NCBI GenBank assembly: GCA_030062745.1
Contig: CP099850.1
Location: forward strand, 1,240,001-1,304,000
Reading direction: 5' to 3'
Length of the DNA: 64,000 nt
Source of the DNA: Capitulum mitella
Taxonomy: Eukaryota; Arthropoda; Thecostraca; Pollicipedomorpha; Pollicipedidae
A program made the translations under genes and the position numbers. Shown one piece after another: positions 11,120 to 62,600 of the stretch (position 1 is its first letter; each line of letters begins with the position of its first letter). The notes beneath the pieces are model-generated. The model saw only the letters and a list, made by a program, of their open reading frames with translations. It was not told the DNA's origin and did no database searches.

Positions 11120-14100
11120 TCCAATTCTAATGGAGAACAAACTGCAATTTCAAAGCCGTCTAAGGCCTACAGGGTTGTAAAATTTCCTCATAAAAACAAC
11201 CGACACCTTAGGCTAGGCACACAGACGCGCTAGTTCCCGCGACTTGCCATGTTTTGGCAACTTTCCTCCAAAACATATCTTGTAATCTATGGTACAAGTT
11301 GAAACATCAAAATTCACCATACGGAAAAATTATAAGGTTTAAAGTTCATTTTTGTGCCAAAAGATATCTTAAGATCACTTAATCAACGTCAACTTTAGTA
11401 AATGTGTAAGTTGACATAGCTTTCCAATATCAAATGTTTGAATTTTGTGATAATTTAGAAACCATTGAATGCGACAATGCTGGCGCACATTGCTTTTCTT
11501 CGTGGTTTCCTTGACAAGACTTGACCACAGACTTTTGACACCTGAGCGCTAGAGGCTGTGTGTCCTAACTCACAAACAAAGAAACAAACAACAATTGGTA
11601 CTGTGTATTGTTTTTTTTTCTCCTTAAGTGAATTCGCTGTTTTATGTTCCCGAAGCAGGTTTTAGCGATGGCACATGCCGTGCACGCTTGAACAACGGGG
11701 TGCACGCCAAAACTACTTAATGCACGCCTGGGAATCGCGAATTGCACGCCTGAGCTGACATCAACTGTCCAGTGCACGCTGACGAGACCTCGTTAAAACC
11801 TGCCACGGTTTGCAGTCTGGGTGGAGGGGACTGGCTGGTTGGTTGGTATGGAATGCTGAGATTTTGTGGCGATTCCGTAAAATCTCGCCGTATCATTAAT
11901 TTAATGGCATATCAGCCATCTGTTGCAGAAAACATGGGGCAATACCATTAAGATTGGTGCACGTCATAATGGCGTCGAAACGCAAGAAACATTATCAGGA
12001 ACGATTTCAACCCTATTCTCGGAGGGCTAAACGACATATAGCTGACTCCCAGCAGGAAGGGGGGGGGGGCGAATTTGGCTCCCTGAGATTTCGAGAACTA
12101 CGCATCCGATTTCATCACAACAAAGACAATCGATTTGCCATGTCGTCGACGCCGACATTTGTTGGAGCTCGTCTGTTTGTTTGTTTTATCGCCATTGATA
12201 CCGGACGGAAGTGGTTCAGAGTCTTTATAGAACAGTGTCTCCAGTTTTGATTCTGTGCCAGGGAGAGCACAGGACGGCGATGGTTCAGAATCGGTACAGG
12301 TTAGTGTCTCTAGCTCTGATTCTGTGGCAGGGTTAGCACAAGACGGAGATGGTTCAGATGAGTATGGGACAGTGCCTCGAGCTCTGATTTTGTGTCAGCA
12401 TGAGCACAGGACGGAGGTGGTTCAGGATCGGCACAAGATGGCGTCTCGAATGGGGTTTTATGTGTATGGCCAATTTTATAACTATTTCGAAACGGCAAAA
12501 TGTTGGGCAGAAATCAAAGGTAGCCACCTGTTGGTGGCGTTGCGATGACCGTCGCCGTATTTCTGACCGATGTGAGACGCACTCGTCCTTATCACGCTTG
12601 TGTCTGGTGGGGTGCAGCAGCTGCGCGTGCGATTAGGGCATTTCCGACCAGCCCGCCTACAAGTGGCTCAGTGGACATGCAGTTATGCGATCAGTGTTGC
12701 CGGCAGTAGCCAACCAGCACTGTAAGGATACATATGGAACATGTGACGGACAAAAACATGTTCTCTGGGGATAGCATCGATCTCTGCAGTTTCAGAAAAT
12801 GTGATTGTCATTTGGCAGAACAGCTGCGAATTTACGAAAGCAACTCATATCAAGAAATCCTCGTGGCACCTACGCATGTCCCTTATTACGCCAGGAGTGG
12901 CAGTTACTGCCTGCGTACGTCTAACGTGTGAACCTGAGGTGGCAAAAGCTGGCTTATGCCACGTCAATGGTATTACCGGATACAGACCGTTTCCTGGAAA
13001 ATACTACCAACTGAACAGGGGACTGTGGTGGCGTGCTAGTACAGTGTATACTGGCGGGATTCGGAGAACCATGGGCTCATGCTCCTGGATCACAGGCTCG
13101 TGGCAGTCCTCTGCACCTGGTTGGAAGTCGATGATTCCGCGGACATTTTGATAACGCCGGTATGAACAAGTGGGCGAGTATTCCCTTCAAAACTGCTGTT
13201 AAAAACGCAAACGGTTAAGTTCGAAATATAACAGCAAAGTTTTAAATATTTCCTTTAAACTACGACAACACCGTTAATACCCAAAGCCGCGAGATTGTTA
13301 AGAAAAAAAAGCAGAAAGGGAGCACTGATGAATTTTGTTCTCGTAGTCCATTCAAATCCAGTTTCCGGATCTACTCGTGAGCCCCCCCCCCCAATAATTT
13401 TCGCGAAAATCCACCCCTGTCGCTGTGCGTGGAGGTGGATTTGTGTAGTGTCAGTGACAGCATGTACATTTTAAATCCAGAGTATTCATGTATTGGTTGG
13501 CGATGGTAATATGATCGCTCCTAGAGCGCAAACGTATGTTCTAGCCGCGAATGTTTGTCAGTATTTTGTGTATAACAATGGACGTGTGTCTCGTACATAC
13601 ATTCGCTGAATACCAAACAGCATACAACACAACACTACACGTTTGATACTTGCAGGCACGTATGCGGTTACAGGAGTGGCTGATGTCGCACGAGAAGGTG
13701 ACGTCCGGCTAATCTCCACCGAACACCGTTCTATCTCCTCGGCGGGAAATGAATGAAAGAGCTGGTGTGGTACGTCCTGTGTCATTTCGCCGGGAGTGCG
13801 AGTTGACAGCAACATTCATTATTATCGGTCGTGCAGAATCTGGCCACGAAGAACTGTTTTGGAGCGATTAGACGGGATGAGCAAGACAATAACAAGACGT
13901 CCAACGACGGCGGAAGGGGCGGGGGACGGACTAGCCAGCGCTAGATTCGAGCAGAACACTGAGCCTGGGGGGGGAGGGACGGACAAGCCGCAGCGTTAGA
14001 TCTGGACAGCGGACAGGCCGGCACTCTGTCGCCGGTGTTGATCGTTTCACAGCGATGGCGGCGGTGTTTGTTAATTCAGCCCGGGTCGTCTGCGTAGCGT
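11120..14100. other. non-coding stretch with a short minisatellite
   Basis: No gene is recognised. At about 12190-12440 a unit of roughly 70 bp is repeated about 3.5 times; each copy contains an 'agcacaggacgg..atggttcag' core and a 'tctg.ttctgtg' segment. Reading frames across it are by-products of the repeat. Poly-G runs occur at 12059-12069 and 13966-13977. Confidence 0.45.
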
Positions 14101-14238
14101 CAGCAGACAATGTCGGCCGGCCTGCGCGTGATCGGCGGCGCTGATATTTAGCGGGGCCGGCCGGGCCGGCGGCCGAGACTCGCTCGCCGCGCCGCCGCGA
14201 GTGCAGGCCAACCGCGACCGTCGAGTACCCCGCTGATC

Positions 14239-14931
14239 ATGCTGCGCCCGGCGCTGTTCGGTCTGCTAACGCTGGCGGCGCTCGGGGCCGCCAACTCCGA
14301 GGTGGACGCCCTCAGAAATTTCCTGGGCGGCGCGGGCAACGCCCTGGTCTGGCCGACGGTGGGCCTGAACGGCTCGGTGGTGGTGAAGTTCGGGCTGAGA
14401 CTGCGGGAGGTGGACGTCGACGAGCGGCGCAACACGGCCACGCTGAACGGCTGGATGTCGTTGGAGTGGGACAACCCGGCGCTCGACTGGTCGGCCGTGC
14501 CGGAGCTGGCCGGCGTGGAGCAGGCGCGGCTGCCCCTCGCGGCCATGTGGGTGCCCGACTTCCTGCCGTACAACATGGTGCCGGCGGCCGACACCAACTG
14601 GATGCTTCCCACGCTGGCTGTGGTGAGGCGCAACGGGAACGTGCTCGTCGTGCCGCCGGTGACGTTCACGGTGCGCTGTCGTCGCAACATCACCGAAGAC
14701 CAGGACCAGCTCAGCTGTCCGCTCAAGATCGGTCCCTGGACGTACAGCAAGAACGAGGTGGACATGCAGCTAGCCGACGAGGCCGATATCGACACCTCCC
14801 ATTTTATCGCGAACGGCGCGTGGAAGGTGGCCAGCACGGCGCTCAAACGAGTGGAAAAGGTGTACGAATGCTGCCCGGAATCGTACGTGTCTGTCGAGGG
14901 GGAGGTGGTGCTGCGGCCTCAGCGCTGCTAG
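14239..14931 (+). CDS. secreted Cys-loop ligand-binding protein (acetylcholine-binding-protein-like)
   Basis: A single uninterrupted frame encodes 230 aa. Residues 1-20 form a signal peptide, and the rest is one Neur_chan_LBD domain. The Cys-loop is C147 to C160 with 12 residues between, as in mollusc AChBPs rather than the 13 of classical receptors. The aromatic cage is complete: Tyr111 (loop A, PYNM), Trp167 (loop B, GPWTY), Tyr209 and Tyr216 flanking the vicinal Cys211-Cys212 (loop C, YECCPESY), and Trp77 (loop D). NGS (44-46) and NIT (150-152) are possible glycosylation sites. The frame stops after the last beta strand, before where TM1 would start, and no membrane segment follows downstream. 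It ends on an unpaired Cys230. Vicinal cysteines mark an alpha-type principal face, so binding acetylcholine-like ligands is a reasonable inference. The alternative is a degenerate copy of a nicotinic receptor gene, but no lesion is seen. Confidence 0.85.
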   Translation: MLRPALFGLLTLAALGAANSEVDALRNFLGGAGNALVWPTVGLNGSVVVKFGLRLREVDVDERRNTATLNGWMSLEWDNPALDWSAVPELAGVEQARLPLAAMWVPDFLPYNMVPAADTNWMLPTLAVVRRNGNVLVVPPVTFTVRCRRNITEDQDQLSCPLKIGPWTYSKNEVDMQLADEADIDTSHFIANGAWKVASTALKRVEKVYECCPESYVSVEGEVVLRPQRC

Positions 14932-14934
14932 GAG

Positions 14935-17024
14935 GTGGAGCTGCCGCCGCGCGGTGCGGGGCTGGTGGCTCGCGCCAAACCGGCCAGCGATGGTCAGATC
15001 CGCCTGAAACGGCCAGCTGCTGACTTCGATTAAGATCAACTGCCTTGTTCGCTCTCAGCACCTAGACTCTGAAAGCATTCAGCAATTTTTTCTTTCGCTT
15101 GGGTCGTTTCGAGACAGAATTGCGTTTTTCTGATGAGCTCGACCTTAGCGAAACCTAGGGCTCCGTTCTTCGGCCCAATTTACGCCCATTAAACGTCTTG
15201 TCGCTTTTCCGATTCTTTTAAGCATCATTCCTTTCGGTGTTGCAAGGGCTGACGCGAGCTGTGACGCTGGCTGTCAAGCCATGCACGGGGTACCATGTAA
15301 CCGTCCCTGCTAGGTGGCTCAGGATTAATGATTACCTGTCACACGCTTCTGTGTAAACATAACTGTGGGGGGCCAATTTACGTTAACATTAGGAGTTTTG
15401 CGCTACACTGTAACCAGTGAAAACGATGTGATGCTAAAACTGAAATATACTTTACGGTATACTATACGCACGGTAACTGATGAAAGCTTTATGCTGCTCC
15501 AACCACTGGCGGATCCAGGAAGGGGCCAGCAAGGTCTACCTCTCGTTGGAAAACCTGGGGTCAACATGTTTTGACCCTGCTGTCCGACGGACATGTGAGG
15601 GATTCGTTTTTCGAAAATGACGTTTCTTTTAACCTTCCCCGGGGCCGAGGAGGTTCATGAGAACCCCCTCCGGGTTTTTGAGGCCGACCAAAAAAGGCGT
15701 GGAGATTCAAAACTTGGGGCATTTTTTCATACATCATGTTTACACTTAATGATAATTTTCAAACCCACACACATCTCAGGCCATTGATTTAGGACAAGCA
15801 AGTAAGCCCATGTTCCAAAGAATGGAATTAGCATAACATTTTGTGAAATGAATCGATTGACATTAAACTCATTAGACTGATAGAAAATGTCAAACGCAAC
15901 ACTTCTGCTATCTCCATTTTTTTTTTCAATAATTTTCAGAGGTTAACTGAGCTTTCGGCCTTTTCTGTGTTTGCTATTAAGATAGCGGAACTGGTTCGGC
16001 GGTTTTAAAGCTTGGATGTACATCCTCAAGCGTCTCACGTCATTTGCACATTTAATGGACCCCCTGACCCGTGGCGCGGGGTCAGGCCACGTTGCATACG
16101 GAATTTTCTGACACGCGACAGGGCAAAGTTCCTTAATTTACGGCCATGAAATGTTTATTTGTAGTCGTATGAGTTTCGGAAACTAATATATGATAAGGAT
16201 TTATTTGCCAACGGTGGCACAATCCCATTCGAACCAAAACGAGCTGACTTGACCTTTCGGAATATTATGCTTGTTTCCAATGCGAACGCACTTTGTACGA
16301 CAGCTTTTGCATTGCGGCGGTACCCGTCGCCCGGTATTTAAGTGACAGGTGAAGAATGCTTTGTGTCACGGTATGTATGTAGTCACAAGTATGTGTAGTA
16401 ACACATGATGCAGAAGGGATGTTACATCATCCGATGTTACGAAGTTTGCATGGTTTATGTCTGACCAATGATAATGAGGCAGATGAAACGACAAACACCA
16501 GAAACGCCCGACGTATAGGCGTAGTTACCTATAATAAAGGCGTACCACGACGCAACTGACGTAGGTTGATCTTGTTCAACGTTTAATATCATAGCTGCAG
16601 ACTTCATGTGCGTACCAGACACATTTGCAGCATATTCCAGCCAAGACATACTTATTCCTTGAGAAAAACGAGATTTCTGCCCTTACAAAAAGGCGATTTT
16701 TTGCCGTCATTTTCTGCGTTCCTTGAAATGGTCAAATTTTGCCCCAATTGCCACATTTCTGTCCCACGTAGGTCAACAGGAACTTCATTTTATTATTAAA
16801 CGCCTTTTAAGCCACGTAGGAAGTATTTTCCGAAAACGTCAACAGCGTAATTTGACATCAGATGGCCTCTGATACTGACCTGACTGGTACTGATCGTGTT
16901 TAAAAAAATGTACGGGCTTCCTTCTAGTTTCGTCAAGGGTTTTCAGACGGTTTTCTTAGTTTTTTTTTGTCAGGCTTATAGTTCTCAGGATCTTGGGGGT
17001 ACGGTGGTTTTGATATGCCATATG
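14935..17024. other. non-coding stretch downstream of the AChBP-like gene
   Basis: No gene is recognised. At 15629-15632 a TTAA is followed by CCTTCCCCGGGG and a nearby inverted pair (GGAGGTTC and GAACCCCCTCC). That is the layout of the TTAA element tips elsewhere in the window, but no matching right end was found. At 15503-15530 a CACTGGCGGATCCAGG motif resembles the tip of a hAT MITE. Confidence 0.35.
15188..15193 (+). terminator. possible poly(A) signal ATTAAA
   Basis: This common variant signal lies about 260 bp downstream of the AChBP-like stop codon. It is only a hexamer match and could be chance. Confidence 0.3.
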
Positions 17025-38812: not shown

Positions 38813-46159
<7,347 letters not shown>

Positions 46160-47458: not shown

Positions 47459-50010
47459 ATGGCCTCGTCTGCGGGGAAGAGTACTTTGACGGCTGTTCGT
47501 GGTATATTAAAACATATCTCGAACACAAAGGGGTTCGATCGGGTCTCGCAAAAGGCAAGCTTTAGGTCTCAAAACTTTAGGGAAATGTGTGGCAATCGGT
47601 CAACCCATTTCAGGTTAATCGGATAGCCAGTTTTGTATGCCTCCTTTGCAGTGGGCGTCAAGGTCAAGGTCAAGATCGAGATCACCCAAGATCTTGTTGC
47701 CATCCCATGTTACTATGTAGTGACCTGAGGAATAGTTGGCAGATAATGCTGTCTGTTGTTTGTCATGTCCAACAAGTATTTTTGTTGAGGTATTTGGTGT
47801 TTACTATATTTTCTGAGTGTTAGAAGAATTAGAAAGGTTTTGATTTAAGTATGCAGTAATGATTACCAGTGTGACCACACTTATGGATGTTAGAGGTGCT
47901 GTTTGTCTGAGATATGCTATGAATAATGTGATAAGCACAGAATAGATAATTTGTTTTGGCTGCGTCAGTCTTCATGCTTCAAGATTGGACTCAAAGGAAA
48001 AGGCTGACTTACAATCACAGTGATATTGAGTAATACCTTTGTTGTTCTTTGTTGTTCAAGTTTTTGTGTACATAAATATTATAATCTTGGCATTGTTGGA
48101 TCAAATGAATAGAATGCCCTTTCAGAGGAGTTATTTTCATGTAATTTTCCATATGTTGTGGAATTTGAGCTTTTGGACAGTGTGTGGTACTTAAGATGTA
48201 TCTAAGCATCACAATCATTCTCAGTCAAAAAATCAGATTTACCATGAGGATACTGTTATGTTCATGTAAACAGCAGTTTGCTGGCAATTAAAAAATGAGT
48301 TTTGAGACATTTTTTTTTAATTTTGCAAGGTAATGAGCCCTTTAATATCATATGATTTGGCAGTTTTTTGCATGATTTGGCACACAACATAAAAATGAGT
48401 GAGAGAGAAAAAATTAAAAAAGCAGTTATCATGATTTATAGTTCATACCACACAGGACATAAGCCAAAGTGACCAGGTGGCAACATTTGCAGCATATGGT
48501 CTTTTTCAATAAAGAGATGTGGTATATGAATAAAGTGCATGCAGAGTACTTGGGATTTCATTTTAGATGCCTTCCATTTTATGGCTGTTTTTTTCCCGGA
48601 ATTCCTGAGACAGTTTTTATCACACATAAGATCCATGCTGTCAGTATTGCAAGACATTTTATGATAAGGAATGGCAAAAATGTTTTTGGTAGGCACAAAA
48701 CATATGCAAAGCAAATTGAGCATCAGCCATATTCTTGACAGGAAATGGGTTCTGACTGCAATATTGATTTGGTATCATGCTATTGCTCATGTTATGGTAC
48801 TGAAAACATACATAAATACAGAGATATACACATTTAGACATACATACTGGGGCTTTATGTATGTCTGTATAACATGTTGTTCTTGTGCATTGGTGAAGAT
48901 TCCCCATCTTCTTGCTTCATTGGGGTACAGAAATTGTTTCCTCAACATTGAGTTACATGAGGCTGGGCTCAGTAATTTATTCAGTCTATCATGTGCCAGA
49001 ATTTGCAGTGAGTAGTTCACTGACATGACTGATTATTTGGCCTGACCTGAGCTGGTCTGGCCATCATCCAAAGGTGGTTGCTGTCCAACCCAGCCATGTG
49101 ACCTGACTAACCTCAACAGCTTGTTTGACCTGACCTTACCTGGCCATGAGCTGGAATTGTCTGCCCAGCCTGACTGTGTGACTGTCTGCCTTACCTCACC
49201 TCACCTGACATGACCTCACCAGCTGGTGTTTGCTGCCTAGACTGGCCATACGACCTGAGCAGTGCACATGACCCGACCTGACCCCCTCAGCTGGAGGTGG
49301 TGGCCGCCAAGCCCGGCCACGTGACAGCCCAGTTCACGGTGGGAGAGGAGGACGTCAACACTGGAGGCACCCTGCACGGTGGCTACACGGCCTACATGGT
49401 GGACCTGGTGTCGACGGCGGCGCTCATGACCACCGGCTCCTGTCTGCCCGGCGTCTCGGTCGAGCTCAGCGTGTCGTAAGTGGCAGCCCCGCACGTCCGG
49501 CTGAGCGAACCTGAGCCTGATGCCGCCTGAATAGGCCCTGAGCCGGTTATGGCCGCCGCTCGCCAAGAGCGCGCTCAGTTTTGTGTCCAGTGGAGATTTT
49601 CATTGGCACATTTGGCGGGTGGGCTCACCGTGAGGCTCGCCGAAATGTAGAGCCTTTCGTGTTCGCTTTGGTGGTTGTCCGAGCCGCCTTCGCATTGGTG
49701 GTTGGTGTTTCAGACGTTTTCGGGCATATGCACATTTTCTAACTTACCAAGACAGATTTGATGCAGTAGAATAGTAATCCACCTGTTGAGAATGCCTGAT
49801 ACCAGCCGGATCCGCGGCGGATGCCGCTGGCGCCATGACGTCGGTCCGGCCGTCGACAGGTACATGCGGGCCGCCCGAGCGGGCGAGCTGGTCACCGTCG
49901 ACGCCGCCATACTGAAGACGGGCCGACAGCTGGGCTTCTGCAACGTCGACCTTCGCAACGCCGCCGGCCAGCTGGTGGCTCAGGGCAAGCACACCAAGTA
50001 CCTGGGATAA
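47459..50010 (+). CDS. ACOT13: hotdog-fold acyl-CoA thioesterase ACOT13/THEM2
   Basis: Three coding exons: 47459-47554, 49291-49475 and 49860-50010, joining to 143 aa (human about 140). The protein hydrolyses acyl-CoA to free fatty acid and CoA; in mammals it is mainly mitochondrial-associated. Conserved active-site positions are all shifted +5 relative to human numbering as I recall it: Asn55, Gly62 in TLHGG, Asp70 and Ser88 in PGVSVELS. The C-terminus AQGKHTKYLG is typical. Exon 1 (begins MASSAGKSTLTAVRG, ends KGFDRVSQK) was found by family match; its donor is GC (AAG|GCAAGC), so intron 1 is a GC-AG intron. The following gene METTL13 converges on it tail-to-tail. Confidence 0.92.
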
Positions 50011-50664: not shown

Positions 50665-53600
50665 CTATAGGTTCTTCAGCTCCTGTGCGAAAGACGCCAT
50701 GTCCATGAAGTCCTCTCGCGGCTTCCCTTTCCGGCGCCGGGAGAGCGTGTCGTTGACGCCGGCGGCGGCCGCGCACACCGCCTCCGCCACGTCACCGTCG
50801 GGCCGGCACCGGAAGCAGTACACCACCTCGTTGACCTCTTCCGGGATCGGGAACGAGGCGCAGGTGGCGAACGCGGCGCGCAGGTCGGCGCGGACCCGGC
50901 CGCCCAGCGTCGCGTCGCGCGCCACCAGGTTCAGCACGAACACTCCTGCGAGGAGGACTCGTCAGCTTGGGGCTCAGGACTCGGCAACGGGGCCGCACGG
51001 ACAGGACGAGGCGCATCAGCGCTCCTCACAATCGCCGTGATCGCACCGCTACGGAAACCGAGACTGAAACTGCAGGGAACTGAAACTGGGACTGGGATTG
51101 GTTGTCCTGCGTGATACAATGGTTGTGCTTCAGCCTTGCATGCGTTCAGCCTCGTCCAGCGGCCCAGCTGTGCCCAAACTGAGGTACAAATGATCCAAAG
51201 AGTCGCAGGTTAGGTACACATGTTGAGGTACAAATGATCCAACGAATCCCGTATGCCGGTTCGCAAACGGTTCCCTGTTCACTCAGAGAGCAGCCCCCTG
51301 TTGGCATCAAAAGAGCTCGTCTATTGACCTGCAGATGGGCCCCTGCCGGCTTGTAATTTGTACGCCTACATGCCTTTACATGGTCCCCTGCTGCCAGCTC
51401 CACAGGAATGGGACGCGCCATTGGCCTGAAGAGGGACTACCTGCCGGTCCATAAAGAGGCCCTCCGTTGGCCTGTAAAGGGCCCTCTGGCGACCTGAAGG
51501 GGTCCCGCAAACCTGCAAAGGTGCCCTCGCTGATGTTACAAGGAGTACTGCTGGTCTATACGGGACCTTTGCCGATCGGTTAAGGAATTTGCCGCAGAGG
51601 ACGCGAACTCAGCACGCAGCCATATTCGAATGTCAAATCGAACAAAATCAAATCAAAGCAAATCGAAAAAAGCTCGCGGATACGACAAAGACGATACAGG
51701 CTGCCGCAAGAAGAGGCCTGGCGAAGCCGGAGACCCCCCCGCCGGTCCATAAGAACCAGGCCCGCTACTGTTTGAGAAACAAACAATGCATGCTGCCCAA
51801 CGAGGAGGCCCCTGAAGCTGAAGGCTTCGCCCGCCCCTTACCCCTCCCCTCAAGAAAACCTTGAGTGCGTCGTTACCGAAATCGACAAACCACAACAAAC
51901 CGCGCCCACGCAAGCCGCAAAGACGAGAGCGACTCGTGGACAAAAAGTACCACGCTGCAACATCATCAACAACGGGCCCAGTGCACCGATGCTTCACTGT
52001 ACCCACAGCAGCAACCGAGACGAGCGGTAAAACCACACCGCACCACAAACAGCGGATGAAACAGACACCAGACCATGGCAGAAACGACAGCTAGGACAGC
52101 GACGCCACACATTGCATCACACACCACATGACGCTTGAGGCGCTACCTTCTGCTGAAATCCGTGCACAGGTTTCCAGACAGGAAAATCTACATCCTAACA
52201 TAAATCACTGGGACAAGTTCGTAAGTAACAACAAAACGGTTCAACGCCAGGTGCATAAGGGCTCCTAGAGCTCCTGTGAAAAACAGCAGCGCTGGGACGA
52301 AACAGCATTCATCGCTCTCCACATGACACGAACGAGGCATACCGGGACACCGCCGCACCACGCATATGCCCTCGAATTTTCCTGTTCGGAACTAAGGAAA
52401 CCGCCCAACAACAGCCGACCGCCACAGAACGGACCCAGTACCGTTCGGCGCTCACCATTGTCGTGCAGACATTCGCGCACGGTCTGGAGCAGGCCGGGCT
52501 CGACAAACTGCACCGGTGGACAGCTCATGCCCAGCGTGGGGTCCTTGCAGTCCACGTCGAACATTATGACGTTGTACTGGCGGCCTGTCGGACCACAGCA
52601 CCCGTCAGTTCCACGTACATCACCAACCGTACATCACAACTACGATAATATGCGAGAGAAAGCTTATTAGGTCCACGTAAAACGCATTGTCATGACAGCA
52701 TGCCAGATTTCACGAATAAGTTTTTCGTTATCCATACAGCGGTAAGGACGTCGCCAGAAAGCCACACGCCGAAGGCGGTCTTTTAACGAGACAAAGTAAT
52801 ACTGTTTTCAAAGTACGATAGCCTTAAAAACAAAGGCGCGTTGTTGAAGTTTTTTCTCACTGAAAAACTGCAGTTGAGCTGTCATTACGATTTGCGAACC
52901 GAATCACCAACACAAAACTGACAAGATCATTAGGTACGAATTTCAACATAAATGACCGTACTTCTACGGCGGCCGCTGATAACACGTCACAGCCCACATC
53001 CGCGTGAGGAATAAATTTTCACATTTTCCTGCGTACCTTACAGAAACCTGCCATGGCTTCCTCCAGGCGCTGCCAGCCGATCCAGTGTGCGAAAGTACGC
53101 GCAAGAGAACAAGTCGACGGACTAAATGGTCCAGTGGGCCGACGCTGACTCGAGTATGAGCCGACTGAACACTCAACGCGGGTCGCCCGGCCGGAGAACG
53201 GGCGGGCGCTGCCGACCGACGCGTGCAGAAAGCGTCAGCGCGGGCGACCGGTACACGGGTCTGCGTCTCGCCGTCCCCCGGCTGCGCCTGCCGCTGCTGC
53301 TGCCGGCCCTGGTGCTGCTGCGCGCCGGCCGGGCCGCCGCGTCCACGACCACCGCGTCCTCGGTGACCACGGCAGCCGCGCACAACGCCTCCGAGGCGCC
53401 GGCCGGCTCCGTGGCCAGGTACCACGACTGCGAGTGCGGCGTGCCCATGTACCCGGTGAGCCGCATCGTGAACGGCGTGCCGACGCGCAAGGAGGAGTTC
53501 CCCTGGATGGTGGCGCTGTTCGCCGGCCGGTCGTTCCAGCAGCCGCCCAAGTGCGGCGGCTCGCTGATCACCGACCGGCACGTGATCACGGCCGCCCACT

Positions 53601-56600
53601 GCCTCACCTACCACTCGGGCCTGTCGCCGTCCAACACGTACGCGCTGGTGGGCGCCTACAACTGGACGGACCGCTACGACGTGCACGAGTCGCAGCTGGT
53701 GCGCGTCTGGGACGGCCACCCCATGTCCACCTTCGACATGGACAAGTTCGACGGCGACGTGGCGCTGCTCGAGCTCGAGCAGCCGGTCGAGCTGAACCCG
53801 TGGGCGTACCCCATCTGCCTGCCGCCGCTCAACTTCACGCTGGACCAGGCGCGCGGCGCCGTCGTGATCGGCTACGGCCGGCTGTGGGCGCTCGCGGTCG
53901 ACGAGACCGGCCCGCAGCCGCAGGACCTCTTCAAAACGGTGCGTGACCTGCGGCTGGTCGACGGGCCCTCCTGCTCCAAGGACCCGCTCGTCAAGCGCAC
54001 CTTTCACAAATCGATGCCGCTGACGGAGCGGCAGCTGTGCGCCTACGGCGACGACACGGACTCGTGCCAGGGCGACTCGGGCGGCCCCCTGATGGTGTTT
54101 GATCGGGAACACTACCGCTACTACCTGCTTGGCCTGGTTAGCTATGGCGCAATGCACTGCAACACGCCCGGCCTGCCCGGCTTCTACGCCAGCGTCATGC
54201 ACGAGAGCATCCGCAACTATATCACCTGCAACATACCCGACGGCGTCACCTGCCGACACTGACGCCGGCATCACCTGCCCACGCTGACGTCAATACCGCC
54301 TATCCAGGCGACGTCACCTGTCGACCATGACGTCAACGCTGTCCATCCAGGCGACGTCACCTTTCCACACTGACGTCAGCGCCGCCTGTCCCGGCGACGT
54401 CACCTGTCGACAACGACGCCGACGCGGCCCGTCCTGACGAATAAGTGCGAAGCGGCTACCGCCTTCCTAATGATAGCTTCTCCACCATAAGAGCCAGTAA
54501 GACGCAAACTGACCTTGATCTCTGTAGTCTCGAATGTACTGGATACCGTCAGCCACGTGCACGGCCAGCCGATCGTCTTCTTTGAAGCCGAACCAGTCGC
54601 GAGCCACCGTCACCACCTCCGGATCAATATCCACCACGTCCACGATGGCCTGAGGGCACCAACGGTATTGACAACTCAGGACCACCACCCCAGGATCAAA
54701 CGCTAAGTTTCCACGATGACCTGAGGTCACATGCCGTGGTGATGTCGAAGCAACTCACATGTCTGCCCGGATGAGGCCATAGTGCCCACTGGCTCATACG
54801 GTACATGCACTTTATTTATTCGCTGACGTCAGTGCGAGGAGTGATTTTACGGTGCACAGTACATTGCGTGATACCCACCAGGTGTCAAATTGACAAATTT
54901 TCACCAAGATGATTTCTACCCACAGAAGTATGTCTAGTTTGAAACCTGACGATCAACGGATGATTTCAACTGACGCAAGGGGTTTTCGCCGTAGTATTCA
55001 GCCTACCAACAGATAACGTAAGTGGCGAATGATAACTACCCTATCCGAACCGGGATGAGCCATGAATCCTGCTAACTGCTGAACGTCACGTCAGTGATGC
55101 CGTGTGCCTGCCCACGACTTAACACGCGGCGGTGGCACTGGGGCAAACAGTACCAGCATGAAGCACCAGCACAGGTTACACGTATTGCACCGTAAACCTC
55201 ACCAGGCAAAACAGTTTCTTTTTATGACTTTGACCCCAGTGATTTACTACAGTGCTCTGAGATCCGAATCCGCGCTAAATTGTGCTTGATGCGCGGACTC
55301 TGCTCCCTACATCCGATCGCGCAATACCAGGTTAACAGCATGGTTTAGAGGCAACAGTTTAACGTGCTGACACGAACGACACGGTCGCGCGGTAGCCAGT
55401 GTCCCCCTCTAAAGGTCAGACACTCTACGAACCTTGCTAAGTGGCCTGCCGGAGAACAGCGAGCGCCGAGGCGACTCGAACCCATCTTGCCATGGCGAGG
55501 AGCGGCGACAAGCACTCTTGGAAATGAGCCACCGACGCGACAGATCCTTGATCATAGCATCCAGACGCCTCCCCCTCCAAGGGTCGGCCCCGCGTCATCC
55601 TGACCCCTCGCAGTGGCGTATTTTTCCGGCTGACCTGCCACCACGGGCCGGCGAGCTCTCCGCCGAGAACAGCGTCGACCGTCCAGTCATGCCCCGTCAC
55701 AGGGCGGCCGCCCCGACCGATTTAACGCGCCTCACGGCCCTGACCGCGGCAAACGGCGCACCTGCGGCAATTGACGGCGCCACGCCGAACCGCCCGGCAC
55801 CTTTCCCCGCCACCGGCAGTCCGGTTACCTGGCCGAACTTGTCGTGCAGAAAGCGCGCCAGGCCGCCGCCGCCGAGGCCGACCACCAGCACGCGGCAGGC
55901 CGAGCCGGCGCCGCCGCCGCCGCCAGCCAGGCCGAGCGCGGCCACCATGTACCGGTGGTGGCAGCAGGAGAGGTGGGCCGAGTCCACCGCCAGCGCCCGC
56001 TGTTGGCCCTTGGCCGTCACTGCCGGCCGACGCATGACCTGAGCCAGCCGCCCGGCACAGACACAACGGCCCTGCTATCAATCGGAACTGCAGAGGGTGG
56101 GGAGGACATCAACGGTTTGACGGCGGACATTCCGATGCAACGCTCATACGCTGTTTGTGTGAGGGTTGCATTTGTGCAACCATAAAATGCTGAACTCCGC
56201 AAAGAATGGTTAGTCCAATACCCCGTATCCCGTCTGGTGCAGCCATGGCCAGAACGCAGACCCCAAAGCGAGGTGCAGCGCAGCAAAAGCGGATGTCCAT
56301 GGACGCTCGTTACGGCTCTCAGAACGCAGACACTCCAGCGCAGAAACCTGACATCATTTCACCGGGGCGCGGGACGCCTCGTCATGTTTTCGCTGAGGTG
56401 CACACATCGCTCTCAACATCAGACACACATCGCCAATTCGAAATTGTCGCATTCCCAGTACGACAAACCAAAACAATCCAATTTAGCAGCCGCATTCCAC
56501 ACAAACATTGACATGCACATGCAGTTGGGACAAAGCGTTACCCAACTGCCTACATGGTGCCAGCCGCCGTTGGCGGGCGGTACAGTCGTCCTGACCTGCC

Positions 56601-59600
56601 TTCAGCCGCGCCTCCGATTGGACGATGTTGACGTTGGCGAGGAAGACCAGTCGACGGAACACCTCGCCGCCCTCCAGATGCACGTCCTCCACCACGTACT
56701 CGCCGGAGAGGGCGCTGGTGCCGCTGTGGCGAACCTCCCGCCGACCAAGGTCGTCCCCGCACGTCAGGAACGGGACCTGCACCGTCACACCGGGCCCTGG
56801 CCGTCACTCGCCGGGCAGCGACGGTCAAAACTAACGACCCGACCGGCACAGCGGGCCAGATTCAACATTCAAACGGTGACGTCAGTGCTGACGCGTCTCG
56901 TCGGGCTATCATTCCGGTTCCCGGCTCGTGACAAGAGCGCCTCAGTCCGTGCTGTATTTGGCAATACCTGGCCGCTCCGCGCAGGCTACACGTCAACGCC
57001 GTCATGCCCTGCGGCCGCGGGGTGACCCAGGCCGGGCCACCGCGGTGCGGTATCCAGCCAAGTATCGGCCGTGCCGGGCACACGATTGCGCCACGTATTC
57101 GGCCGTTGTAAACACAACAGCGACGACATAACCAGTAGGCGGTCAAGTGGGAGGGGCCAGTGGTGAAGGCCACCAATTTTCGTTAACTTTAACATAAATC
57201 CTATATGTTGCATGGCAATAATCGGCTCAAAATAGGGCAATCGCCCTCCAAGACGACATCATTAGCACAACCACATACTACTTTCACAGAAAGTCATCAA
57301 GAGGCGACTGGAACAGCGGAATAACTGTTGGGTGTGGCAAGACCACACAATGCAATGGTTGGCAAACGTGAAAGAATGGTTGACTTAACCTATTTACACG
57401 TCATCGCGAAAGTGGATCTAAACAGAACACGGCGCCCACCCGAACCTCAGGTTTATGATTCACCTAGACCCCATACCGGCGCCTTTCTCTCGATCAACAT
57501 AACATGCTGGCCGGGCTCTGGCGGTGGCAGCAGTGCCCCCCTCTCGAGTACAGGGTTCCTACGCCGTTCAGGACGACGTAAATACGAACCTTACAGATCA
57601 TTTATGTCTATAAATACAAAACTTTCACGAACATTTTTGAGTCGGCATGGGGAGAACAAAGACAGACAGACAATGGCTGGGATGATTAGTCGCGTACACA
57701 GTAGATGGGACAAAGAATCCTCGTTTTCTGGTACCCAGGTAGCCACATGACCCCAAACTTTTATGCCTGCAAAAGCCTGCAGTCGCACGTCTGAGGTGAT
57801 CAGTGATCTCTACCCTGCAAACTGAGGGAACGGAGCCGCAAGACGCTCCTCAGTCATAAACGTTTATGATTTTCAAGTCGCCAGGACACAGTAACGATTT
57901 GCGGTGCGTATGCCGTCCTGTGTCAGTTCTGCGGCACTTTTGTGATGTTAGGAATAGAAAAACAAAATATTTTAACTACCCCTTAACTCATACTGTGGAC
58001 TGGCCGAGACCCACTCGAACAACTATTTGCCATAATCGCATACAAGGTTTGAATCTCACAGAGTGTGTTTCGACCTTCTCCGGTAGCGACGGGTAGACAG
58101 AGTAGGGGATGGAGGGTTGGTCGTATTACCAAGAAAACGGAATCGATTTCTGAAGGGTTCTGAGAAACCTTGTTGTATTACGCATTCCATGTTCCAAAAC
58201 AACATTTCAATCATCAGCAAAGAAAAACAGAAAATTTTTGCAAGCACGTATTGATTGGGCCATGACACACAAATTGTACTGACCGAACCCTGACAGACAA
58301 TGTACTGACCGATCCCTGACAGACAGCGTACAGACCAACCCCTGACTGACACCATACTGACCGAGCCCCGACAGACACCGTACTGACCGACCCCCAACAG
58401 ACACCGTACTGACCGGGCCCCGACAAACATCGCACTGACGATCCCTGACAGACACCGTACTGACCGGGCCCTGACAGACGTCGTTCTGACCAGGCCCCGA
58501 CAGACACCGTATTGCTCAGGCCCTGACAGACACCGTACTGATCGGGCCCTGACCAACACCGTAATGACCGATCCCTGACAGACACCGTACTGACCGGGCC
58601 CTGATCAACGCTGTACTGACCAGGCCCCGGCAGACACTGTACTGACCGGGCCCTGACAGACACCGAACTGGCCGGGCCCTGGCAGACACTGTATTGACCA
58701 GGCCCTGGCAGACACTGCACCGACCGGGCCCTGGCAGACACTGTACTCACCGGGACCTGACAGACACTGTATTGACCAGGCCCTGACAGACACCGCAATG
58801 ACCGGGCCCTGACAGACACCGCAATGACCAGGCCCTGACAGACACCGCAATGACCGGGCCCTGACAGACACCGCAATGGCCGGGCCCTGACGGACACCGC
58901 ACTGAACGGGCCCTGGCAGACACTGTATTGACCGGGCCCTGACAGACACTGTACTAGCCGGGCCCTGGCAGACACTGTACTAACCGGGCCCTGACAGACA
59001 CTGTACTAACCGGGCCCTGGCAGACACCGCACTGACCGGGTCCTGCCGCGGCGGCGCTCGGCTGAACTGCACGTCGTCCCTGAGATGGGCCGGCCGCAGC
59101 TGGAGCACGCTGTCGGCCAGCTCCGCCTGCACGTCGGCCAGCGCGCCGAACCGGCACCGCCGGCCGGTCAGGTGCACCACCACCAGCCGGTCGTGCCCCG
59201 CGGTCTCCGCCAGCTGACGGCGGCTGGCCGGCGTCCCGAACATCCACTCCGTCTCCCTGGCAACGCACGGCGGCGGCGCGTTCACCGGGCGCCGGTGAGC
59301 ACGCCGCTCGCCAGGTGGCGCAGGCCAGTGAACGACGAGCTGAACCACGCAGGCTTCCAACGTCTTGACTCGGAAAGCCCGCTGAGATGGTGTGGACATT
59401 GCAGCAAAACAGGCAACACAGCCAACTGGGCACCATAAACCATCCATTTCCGCCCGTGAGCCCGCCAGGTGGCGAGCACGCAGCAAGGGGAGGATGCCAG
59501 AAGCGTCCTATGAAGAGACCAATCGGTCAGTAGTGTCGGCTGATGGCTGGGAGTACCTGGCCAGAGGTCGTACCTCTCCGACGACCCCACTGCACGTCCC

Positions 59601-62600
59601 CTGACGTCGCCTCGGGCGAGCGCGCTCCGAGTGCCGCGGGCGCTCACCTGCCCTGCGGCACGATGAAGACGGCGAACGCCCGCTTCGTCTTCTTCCGCCA
59701 GCGGTCGACGACGAAAAGCGTGAACCGCGTCTGGCCGCCGTCCGGGTGGCACAGTTCCAGCCGGACGTCGTCGCCGCTGCCGGGCGCCGCCAGGCCGTGT
59801 CGCGTGAAGGCGAACTGTTGCAGGCCGGCCACCGCCTGCAGCACGGCCTCGGCGGACGGCAGCCGCCGCGGCTTCTCCCCCTGCAGACTGAGCTCCAGCA
59901 CCTGACGACGTCAGACGGTGAAGTAACGTTATCATATACCATCGCACATAAAGACATAAACCTAAAAAGATGCATGGATGACGTGACCGAGTGAACCAAT
60001 TAAACTCCAGAAAGTAACTGAAGTGGAACACACCCGGATCATTTACAATCAAATTAGAGTTTCCTGAAAGTATTTCTTTTCGCGCGTTGCTTCAGGCCGA
60101 ACAGCGGCTCACATTTAAAGGTTTGCCGTCCGGTCGAAGCTCAAACTTTGTGCAGACGACCACGAACACTGGGAAGGCTATCCCACCAGAATCGGAGCTT
60201 TCGGCACTCTTACACCTGACGGAAAACGTCAAAACGTTAGACATATTATACAAAGTCACTAGGACGAAGCAAACAGGCAAAAGTACGACACAGGGAAACC
60301 CGACCAACAAAGTTCACGCGAAGTCATGGCGATGTTTGTTTTCCTGTATCGACGGTTTTGAACTGATGGACTGCAAACGCGGTGCAAAAGGAACGGACCA
60401 AACATCACTGCTTCCAATAAATCCAACAGATATCGGCGCTAAATGCTCTTACAACATATGAGGCTGCCAACAACATTTGCCTGATGTTTTCCCAGGGCAA
60501 GGAAGGATTTCTATGAGGTGCATGAAGAAAGCAAGAGGCAAAACGTTGCCCACACATATGTACATTGTAAGTCCCTCAACGATCTCTATCCGATCGGATC
60601 TCACTGATTTATCGATGACAACTAATCACTCTATGATTAGGATATCCGATATAACATATGTATGTATGCTCGGTTGATATGTGAGTAAACCAAATCTCGG
60701 ATACAAATGAGTCCGCTCTGACACTCCCCACGCACAATGAGCGCCATATGAGTTACAATGTGGGTATAACCACACTATGCACGCTAAACACACCACCCAG
60801 CCCCGTACGCCTAAGTACGCAACCACTCGGCCCTGCTCATCTAAATATGAATACATGTGCGAACCGCCCACCACAAAATGAGTACCATTCCACACTGCTC
60901 AACCAAAGCGAACATCACCCAGCTCCAGCCGCCTAAAAATACACACCGCCGGTTCGTGTTCCCCGTAACACGCGCGCCTCCCGGCCCCAGGTCCCGCTAA
61001 CCTGCAGATCCGCACCATCCAGCCGTGGCGCGGGAACCAGTGCAGCAGCTTGCGCAGGATGTGGCTCTGGAGGAGCGACACGCAGACGTACCGGCCGCCG
61101 ACGCGGAGCACGCGGCCGATCTCCTGCAGCGGGCCGGGCCGGAGTCAGCTGCGGGACGGCTGGCGGCGACGCTGAGCCGCCGGGCGTCACGCCGAGGTAC
61201 GGCCTCACGCCCCCCCCCCCAAGGAAACGGTGCCAGCAAGGGTCAGGCCCAGGCGCCGAAACGTGCGACGCCACGCCAAGCTTTCAAAATAAAAACGCCA
61301 GTCAAACGCGACGAGAAAAGAAGGGCACCAACACTGACACAGTCCATTACACCCAACTCAATGGTGTTCAGAAACATGCCTACCGAATGACCAGGTTCAA
61401 GGGCGCACCAGCTTCGTGGTCGTGCGTCGCCCAAAAGACACTCGTTTATCCACGTCGGGCCTGGAGGGCGGGCACACCTTGAACATGGTCTCCACCATCT
61501 GCGAGGTTTGCTCGTCGTCGTGGGTGAAGACGGCATCCAGGGTGCCCTTATCCAGGACACACGTGAACTCTTTGTCGGGAAACTCCAGCTGCATCAGGTC
61601 CATGCGGACGAACTTCATGCCACGCTCGCCATATTTCTGCACCATCTGGCGTATCACGACTTCACTGATGTCGACGGACACCATCGACCTGCCAGTACCA
61701 AAGCTGACCTGATGGACCACCCTGGGCTAACAGGCATAGTGCCAGGCTCTCAGAAACACAGCTGATGACACACATTGGATCGTATTGTATTGTACACATG
61801 TTTTCCCACTAATGAATTAACAATAATATAACTGGTACAATGCATTTTAGAAAAGCATGCCTCCAGTTTTAAGGAAGATAAACAGAACAATTATAAGAAT
61901 AGCAGACCACTGTTTGCACTTCACAGCAGGCCAAAACATTGTCTATTCAACATGTCACAAAACTGGCCAAATCAGGCACAGCACAAAATAAGTATCAGAT
62001 TAATTACTTTTGATAGGAAAATGACTTGAGAGAAAAGGTCCATTTACAATGCACTCATGCAAGACAACAAGTAAAACAGTCAAGCAAAATATATAAACCT
62101 AAGGTTATGGAAAAGTGACAGTCCTACACTGTGATATATTTAGAATGGATCAAAATATCACTGCTACTCTGTATTAATATTGGTACATTCTGCATCATTT
62201 GGGATGTTTTTCTTTACACCTGGCCCTGTTCTTCAGTTTGCAATAAATATGCTTCTCATTTTCTTATATTCCCAAGATGTCCATATTTCAGAAGGCAAAA
62301 AGGAAGATGGTTACATCTGGCAAAACACAATGCTTACTTGTATCCAACATTCCACATGTCTGCACTAAGGGTTGAGTTGCCACAACCAGCCACCAGGATG
62401 TGGTCCCTGGTCCACACATACTTGTCCAGGACTTCACACAGTTGAGGATATTCACCATACCTGCCAAGCAGTCACAATGAGATGAGATAATTGTCACAAA
62501 AAGTGAAATATTGGGACATGCAGACATCAGAAAGGTATGGAAAGCAGCAACAGATATAAACAAATCCACTTAAAAAGTATGATAACATGTCTGTACAACA

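Follow-up and report, generated by a model that had tools for sequence, protein, structure and literature searches.

Can an arthropod encode the ligand-binding half of a nicotinic receptor as a gene of its own? The question is raised by an open reading frame in the barnacle Capitulum mitella, lying in the 64,000-nucleotide stretch of DNA analyzed here as a whole (the window, C12:1240001-1304000 of a 477,042,490-base assembly in 16 contigs). The initial annotation described this frame, which we call copy A, as an intronless gene for a soluble protein resembling the acetylcholine-binding proteins (AChBPs). Its coordinates and stop are exact: 14239-14931 on the + strand holds 230 codons and a TAG in one uninterrupted frame. 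An HMM search, which the annotation had proposed, matched residues 39 to 226 to the Pfam family Neur_chan_LBD (E-value 8.8e-32, 110.7 bits with a curated cut-off of 26). Copy A also matches 198 sequences of solved structures, and the best 60 of these 198 are all named nicotinic receptors or AChBPs. Within these 60, the top relatives are AChBP/alpha7 chimeras (101 bits) and alpha7 (92 bits); 'soluble acetylcholine receptor' chains, which we take to be Aplysia AChBP, score 84 bits and Lymnaea AChBP 76 bits. That the best match is a hybrid of AChBP and alpha7 fits an alpha7-like body carrying AChBP-like loops. It is this homology that is decisive. The length of the frame by itself is weak evidence: a + strand frame of 231 codons or more occurs in 61 out of 2,000 shuffles of a 900-nt stretch. 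GC3 is 0.90 in copy A, compared to 0.53 in the 30-codon block beyond the stop (14959-15048).

The first 20 residues (14239-14298, +) form a signal-peptide-like N-terminus, with the cleavage site judged by eye. Hydropathy peaks at 1.59 in two 17-residue windows, those that begin at residues 1 and 2, and 17 of the 20 residues are invariant across the three intact copies of the gene described below. On the basis of hydropathy, copy A may carry a signal peptide. The coding part is intronless, and the 5' leader may hold an intron. The AlphaFold model of copy A, built from the single sequence without alignment, has a pLDDT of 39.5 and therefore gives no structural support.

Elsewhere in the window, a trypsin-like serine protease lies at 53126-54262 (+), with the protease domain in a single frame and GC3 of 0.95; its best solved match is a pro-phenoloxidase activating enzyme (99.7 bits), and thrombin reaches 98.5 bits, which points weakly to an arthropod source. 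Pieces of Elp3 occupy separate stretches and frames at 42100-44560 (+), as exons would give, and a piece of a thioesterase superfamily member 2 homologue is found at 49288-49479 (+). A methyltransferase-like stretch at 61472-61690 (-) scores 27.2 bits in Pfam, with a cut-off of 27. The window also contains a 26-bp minisatellite of about 30 copies (58276-59045) and a perfect (CT)126 repeat (45072-45323). Rfam families at gathering thresholds, tRNAs and TTAGG repeats were searched for in the window and none was found.

We placed the residues of the aromatic cage by aligning copy A to 5afm, a solved AChBP/alpha7 chimera chain. The loop names (A to E) are those that we take to apply to these positions, and all coordinates are on the + strand. 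Most of the site agrees with the initial annotation: Tyr111 in loop A (14569-14571) aligns with Y92 of 5afm, Trp167 in loop B (14737-14739) with W146, and Tyr209, the vicinal Cys211-Cys212 and Tyr216 in loop C (14863-14886) with Y185, C187, C188 and Y192. The exception is Trp77, which had been counted as a cage residue; it aligns with W59 and is a leucine in the tandem copy B, and the cage tryptophan of loop D, on the complementary face, is instead Trp72 (14452-14454; W54 of 5afm). W72, Y111, W167, Y209, C211, C212 and Y216 are present in all three intact copies. Loop E of copy A is hydrophobic (V128, L136, V138). Since the chain bears both faces of the pocket, loops A, B and C as well as Trp72 and loop E, it has what a homopentamer requires.

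We consider it likely that copy A encodes a soluble protein that is secreted and homologous to the ligand-binding domain (LBD) of nicotinic receptors, probably homopentameric and probably a binder of nicotinic-type ligands. Copy A has the domain and an intact site, lacks a recognizable transmembrane (TM) domain and belongs to a set of several copies with preserved frames. The product would leave the cell as a soluble protein, would probably assemble from five identical chains with both faces on each, and would probably bind acetylcholine or related ligands while gating nothing. It might act as a buffer or decoy in the synapse or in the haemolymph.

Copy A belongs to a small family in this genome, with two tandem copies on C12, one copy on C5 and one broken copy on C2. 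Copy B (C12:1234847-1235533) lies 19.4 kb upstream of copy A on the same strand and is 80% identical to it; copy C (C5:9804819-9805508) is 75% identical. In the broken copy (C2 13575864-13576201), the pieces corresponding to residues 1-45 and 51-115 are in different frames, with the frame change between residues 45 and 51, and the homology stops around residues 112-115. The Pfam LBD is matched by all three intact copies, which are identical in the position of the stop, the 12-residue Cys-loop, the cage and five cysteines, including the odd C-terminal one. The TAG of copy A (14929-14931, +) stands ahead of TM1, a few residues from the pre-TM1 position. The description of copy A as soluble and AChBP-like, with its cage complete and TM segments missing, is supported, and the two intact paralogs that stop at the same place strengthen it. 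Bacterial and viral contigs gave 26 and 6 pattern matches, respectively, none of which was confirmed as a relative.

The similarity between the copies is not limited to the coding sequence (CDS). Using blastn, copies A and B share a block at 13770-16181 (+) with 78% identity and, after an interruption in B, a second block at 16184-16998 with 70% identity; copies A and C share 13778-16813 with 74% identity. On the 5' side, homology thus begins about 0.47 kb ahead of the ATG; past the stop, it continues for 1.25 kb unbroken in B (to 2.1 kb after the interruption) and for 1.9 kb in C. Because it reaches beyond the CDS on both sides, A, B and C arose by DNA duplication. We discarded the TATTTA at 14145 as a conserved TATA box, as it is kept in copy B and missing in C.

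Are these duplicates maintained? They could be a family of decaying retrogenes or duplicates, whose frames are still open merely through youth and GC-richness. In favor of such decay, the copy on C2 is broken in frame, open frames of this length are not rare in GC-rich DNA, as the shuffles indicate, and in molluscs low or absent expression is more frequent among intron-poor nicotinic receptor (nAChR) genes, according to extracts of PMC6896357. Against decay, the genome has three intact copies without frameshift, which have kept the same stop, the five cysteines and the cage. In particular, the CDS contains one indel (3 nt) in 690 positions between A and B and none in 693 between A and C. In the 3' noncoding DNA, from 120 to 1,250 nt past the stop, there are 16 indels in 1,045 positions and 19 in 1,009, respectively (P-value 0.004 for A-B and 6e-5 for A-C, Fisher test); the first 120 nt after the stop, with 0 and 1 events, were left out of the count. 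The frames have therefore held while the 3' noncoding DNA accumulated 12 to 20 indels per kb, which speaks against decay. The same contrast taken against the 400 nt of the 5' flank (1 indel in 392 positions for A-B, 3 in 396 for A-C) is not significant for A-B (P-value 0.47) and significant for A-C (P-value 0.005). Between A and B, sequence identity is 88.6% in the CDS, 86.2% in the 5' flank and 74-77% in the two 3' segments; between A and C, the values are 84.6%, 80.3% and 69-74%. As the 5' 400 nt, perhaps promoter and leader, are nearly as conserved and have few indels, the paucity of indels is not specific to the CDS.

Substitutions give a divided picture. Over the whole gene, dN/dS (Nei-Gojobori) is 0.79-0.80 in the three pairs, a value that favors the decay reading. 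It falls to 0.41 (A-B) and 0.34 (A-C) over codons 151-230, where nonsynonymous changes are fewer than synonymous ones in A-C (P-value 0.008; A-B, P-value 0.06), which argues against decay. In two stretches of codons 21-150, dN/dS is 1.0-1.4 in both A-B and A-C, with no synonymous excess. That dN/dS differs between these two regions is no more than suggestive (P-value 0.27 for A-B and 0.058 for A-C). The whole-gene ratio and codons 21-150 imply that much of the domain is under weak constraint or diversifying selection. Since dS (0.15-0.21) is below the 3' noncoding divergence, constraint on synonymous sites or gene conversion may have inflated dN/dS. Among the three copies, the most variable residues are 81-103 (10 of 23 invariant) and 116-124 (1 of 9 invariant). 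In our reading, A, B and C are real genes that combine a conserved core with a variable periphery, where selection may be relaxed or diversifying. Judged from the sequences, they are probably a functional AChBP-like gene family, and decay is an unlikely account of them.

The cysteines raise another alternative. Copy A has five (C147, C160, C211, C212 and C230), so that the terminal Cys230 (14926-14928, +) is the odd one, unpaired as the initial annotation had it. Its presence in all three intact copies makes the idea that it could link oligomers covalently more credible. Barnacles calcify, and copy A could be a mineral-binding protein for plate calcification, with the same anatomy and a role other than the one we favor. 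The precedent is ACCBP, a mineral-related, di-pentameric AChBP variant of pearl oyster and abalone that regulates shell growth (extracts of PMC3423370), and a terminal cysteine could likewise join pentamers. However, ACCBP is described there as glycan-rich, whereas copy A has two sequons, of which N44 is common to A, B and C and N150 is limited to A, being missing in B and C. We regard the mineral role as quite unlikely.

The Cys-loop bears on where the protein works. The loop of copy A, RRNITEDQDQLS, runs from C147 to C160 (14677-14718, +) with 12 residues between the cysteines, as first described, and has the same length as in Lymnaea AChBP (PDB 1uv6). It is without the FPF core, as opposed to the FPFD-type core of receptor subunits, and thus lacks the hydrophobic core of a channel-subunit Cys-loop. 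The aligned beta-3 and beta-4 subunits and the ordinary nicotinic exons that we read in this genome, which look presumably arthropod-like, all have a 13-residue Cys-loop with the FPFD-type core. A truncated receptor subunit acting inside the cell, for instance as an assembly decoy or chaperone for nicotinic receptors rather than as a secreted binder, would agree with the alpha7-like body that copy A has kept. Yet membrane subunits keep the FPF core, which is lost here as in soluble AChBPs, and an intracellular subunit is in our view very unlikely.

A last alternative would be that the gene continues past the stop. Using tblastn with human alpha7 TM segments, we found no homologue of TM1-TM4 in the 64-kb window (best E-value 0.8), and no Pfam family in the three + frames of the 15 kb downstream of the stop (14932 to about 29933). 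Nor is there a donor-like splice site (7 of 9 or better) close to the end of copy A. Of the 105 PF02932 matches listed genome-wide, one is on C12 at 17.24 Mb, about 16 Mb from copy A (1.25 Mb), and those on C5 lie at 11.77 Mb or beyond, about 2 Mb from copy C (9.80 Mb). This search, which took exons one at a time, scored 150 of 164 candidates and could have missed divergent TM exons. Downstream TM exons were thus neither detected in the window nor listed nearby. We find it hardly credible that copy A is one exon of a receptor continued by TM exons downstream. In a related gene on C7, exons further along carry TM-like pieces, and very divergent exons could go unseen, as the TM region of a gene on C9 is missed by Pfam, but no TM homologue or listed match is near, no donor-like site of that quality lies close to the end and three copies share the stop. 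Beyond the TAG, 33 hydrophilic codons follow in frame without a further stop (14932-15030, +; EVELPPRGAG...), and the matching stretch has at least 43 open codons in copy B and at least 42 in copy C. This possibly represents a readthrough tail, what is left of a longer C-terminus, or a chance effect of GC-rich DNA.

We then return to the secreted soluble binder and ask from which gene it could derive. The genome search with PF02931 scored 150 of 163 candidates and listed 127 matches. Ordinary nicotinic genes, as far as examined, are divided among several exons; in some other genes, one frame spans the LBD and at least some of the membrane domain. Most of the LBD lies in one open frame at 14 loci among L015-L044, and the vicinal cysteines of loop C are present in four of them (A, B, C and the C9 gene) and missing in ten (L016-L019, L021, L022, L024, L025, L033 and L043); six further long LBD frames in the list stand outside this count. 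For nine of these ten, L043 aside, the frame also takes in at least part of the membrane domain, and three of the nine sit within 26 kb on C4 (21396498-21422125). The C9 gene (L004/L015; C9:17837110-17840745) is receptor-like, with a 492-codon single frame, a full LBD and an 11-residue Cys-loop. It resembles copy A in its single frame, in the CCPEPY motif with vicinal cysteines and in 32% identity, and differs by hydrophobic TM-like segments that the Pfam channel profile does not recognize. The receptor-like gene on C7 (C7:6481193-6495482) shares CCPEPY with copy A but has introns: pieces like those of C9 are spread over different exons, and the TM-like ones match C9 weakly (E-values 0.005, 0.018 and 0.16).

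A tree built from 15 sequences places A, B and C together with the sequences from C6 and C9 (84/86). Next to them stand the C7 gene with its introns and Lymnaea AChBP, and the seven form a group with support of 95/96. Without Lymnaea, A, B, C, C6, C9 and C7 group with 89/89; without the anion outgroups and C6, C9 and C7 have no resolved placement. The AU test rejects none of the groupings of A, B and C with Lymnaea (P-value 0.22), with C9, C6 and C7 (P-value 0.23) or with C9 alone (P-value 0.20). The phylogeny proposed at the outset thus joins the family softly to C6 and C9 and not directly to Lymnaea AChBP, and since none of the groupings tried is rejected, that with Lymnaea included, an origin from a local intronless receptor is a lead and not a result. 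The C9 gene is a candidate source of the soluble family, which likely descends from an intronless nicotinic receptor of this genome whose membrane half was lost. The suggestion of a retrogene is plausible in that the ordinary nicotinic genes examined are in exons and the soluble family and the C9 gene are not; it does not extend to the present copies, which are DNA duplicates. By eye, neither a poly(A) tract nor a target-site duplication was seen downstream of copy A.

A broader scenario, which we put forward tentatively and hold to be rather doubtful, is that barnacle soluble AChBPs arose independently of those of molluscs. A receptor would have been retroposed, its membrane half would have decayed (the C9 stage) and been lost, and the copies would have duplicated and diversified at the pocket rim. 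The terminal cysteine would link pentamers, and the protein would serve as a haemolymph decoy for nicotinic toxins met in filter feeding or as a calcification factor. The genome allows the comparison of possible stages, namely an intron-bearing receptor, a one-frame receptor with odd TM segments, LBD-only copies and a broken copy. A crustacean family of soluble AChBPs would help to show whether loss of the channel half has recurred. In a sessile, calcifying filter feeder, the candidate roles are acetylcholine buffer, toxin trap and calcification. Snail proteins often serve as templates for modelling the nicotinic sites of arthropods, shrimp being one example, and the copies might give an arthropod LBD that can be produced as a soluble protein.

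How does this family compare with known systems? The initial annotation noted that AChBPs are best known from molluscs and some annelids and that one in an arthropod would be notable. This is partly outdated in view of the AChBP of the spider Cupiennius salei (CsAChBP, KT183363), reported in 2015 to be without TM regions and 246 amino acids long, with a possible relative in Stegodyphus (extracts of PMC4569296). CsAChBP, which we compare through that description, is like copy A an arthropod LBD alone, but it is longer and has a 16-residue Cys-loop (PMC4569296, in part). Among the open-access literature matches listed, no title or abstract opening reported a crustacean AChBP. The molluscan AChBPs of Lymnaea, Aplysia and Biomphalaria share with copy A the LBD-only architecture, the intact cage and the pre-TM1 end. 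Similarity to them is only 76-84 bits within the best 60 of 198 matches, and Lymnaea AChBP, which equals copy A in Cys-loop length, ends in a tail in place of the terminal cysteine. Biomphalaria AChBP genes have introns, whereas the coding part of copy A has none. In Biomphalaria AChBP2, which has a glycan site in the Cys-loop, a single extra cysteine is held responsible for disulfide-linked dimers (PMC3423370, in part). Intronless nAChRs are abundant in molluscs, where they multiplied by retroposition and duplication, and none was observed in D. melanogaster or C. elegans, as stated in the sections of PMC6896357 that we used. Like copy A, these molluscan genes are intronless and multiplied; unlike it, they are massively expanded receptors. 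Set against these systems, what is new in C. mitella is a probable crustacean AChBP, encoded by an intronless multi-copy family with a conserved terminal cysteine.
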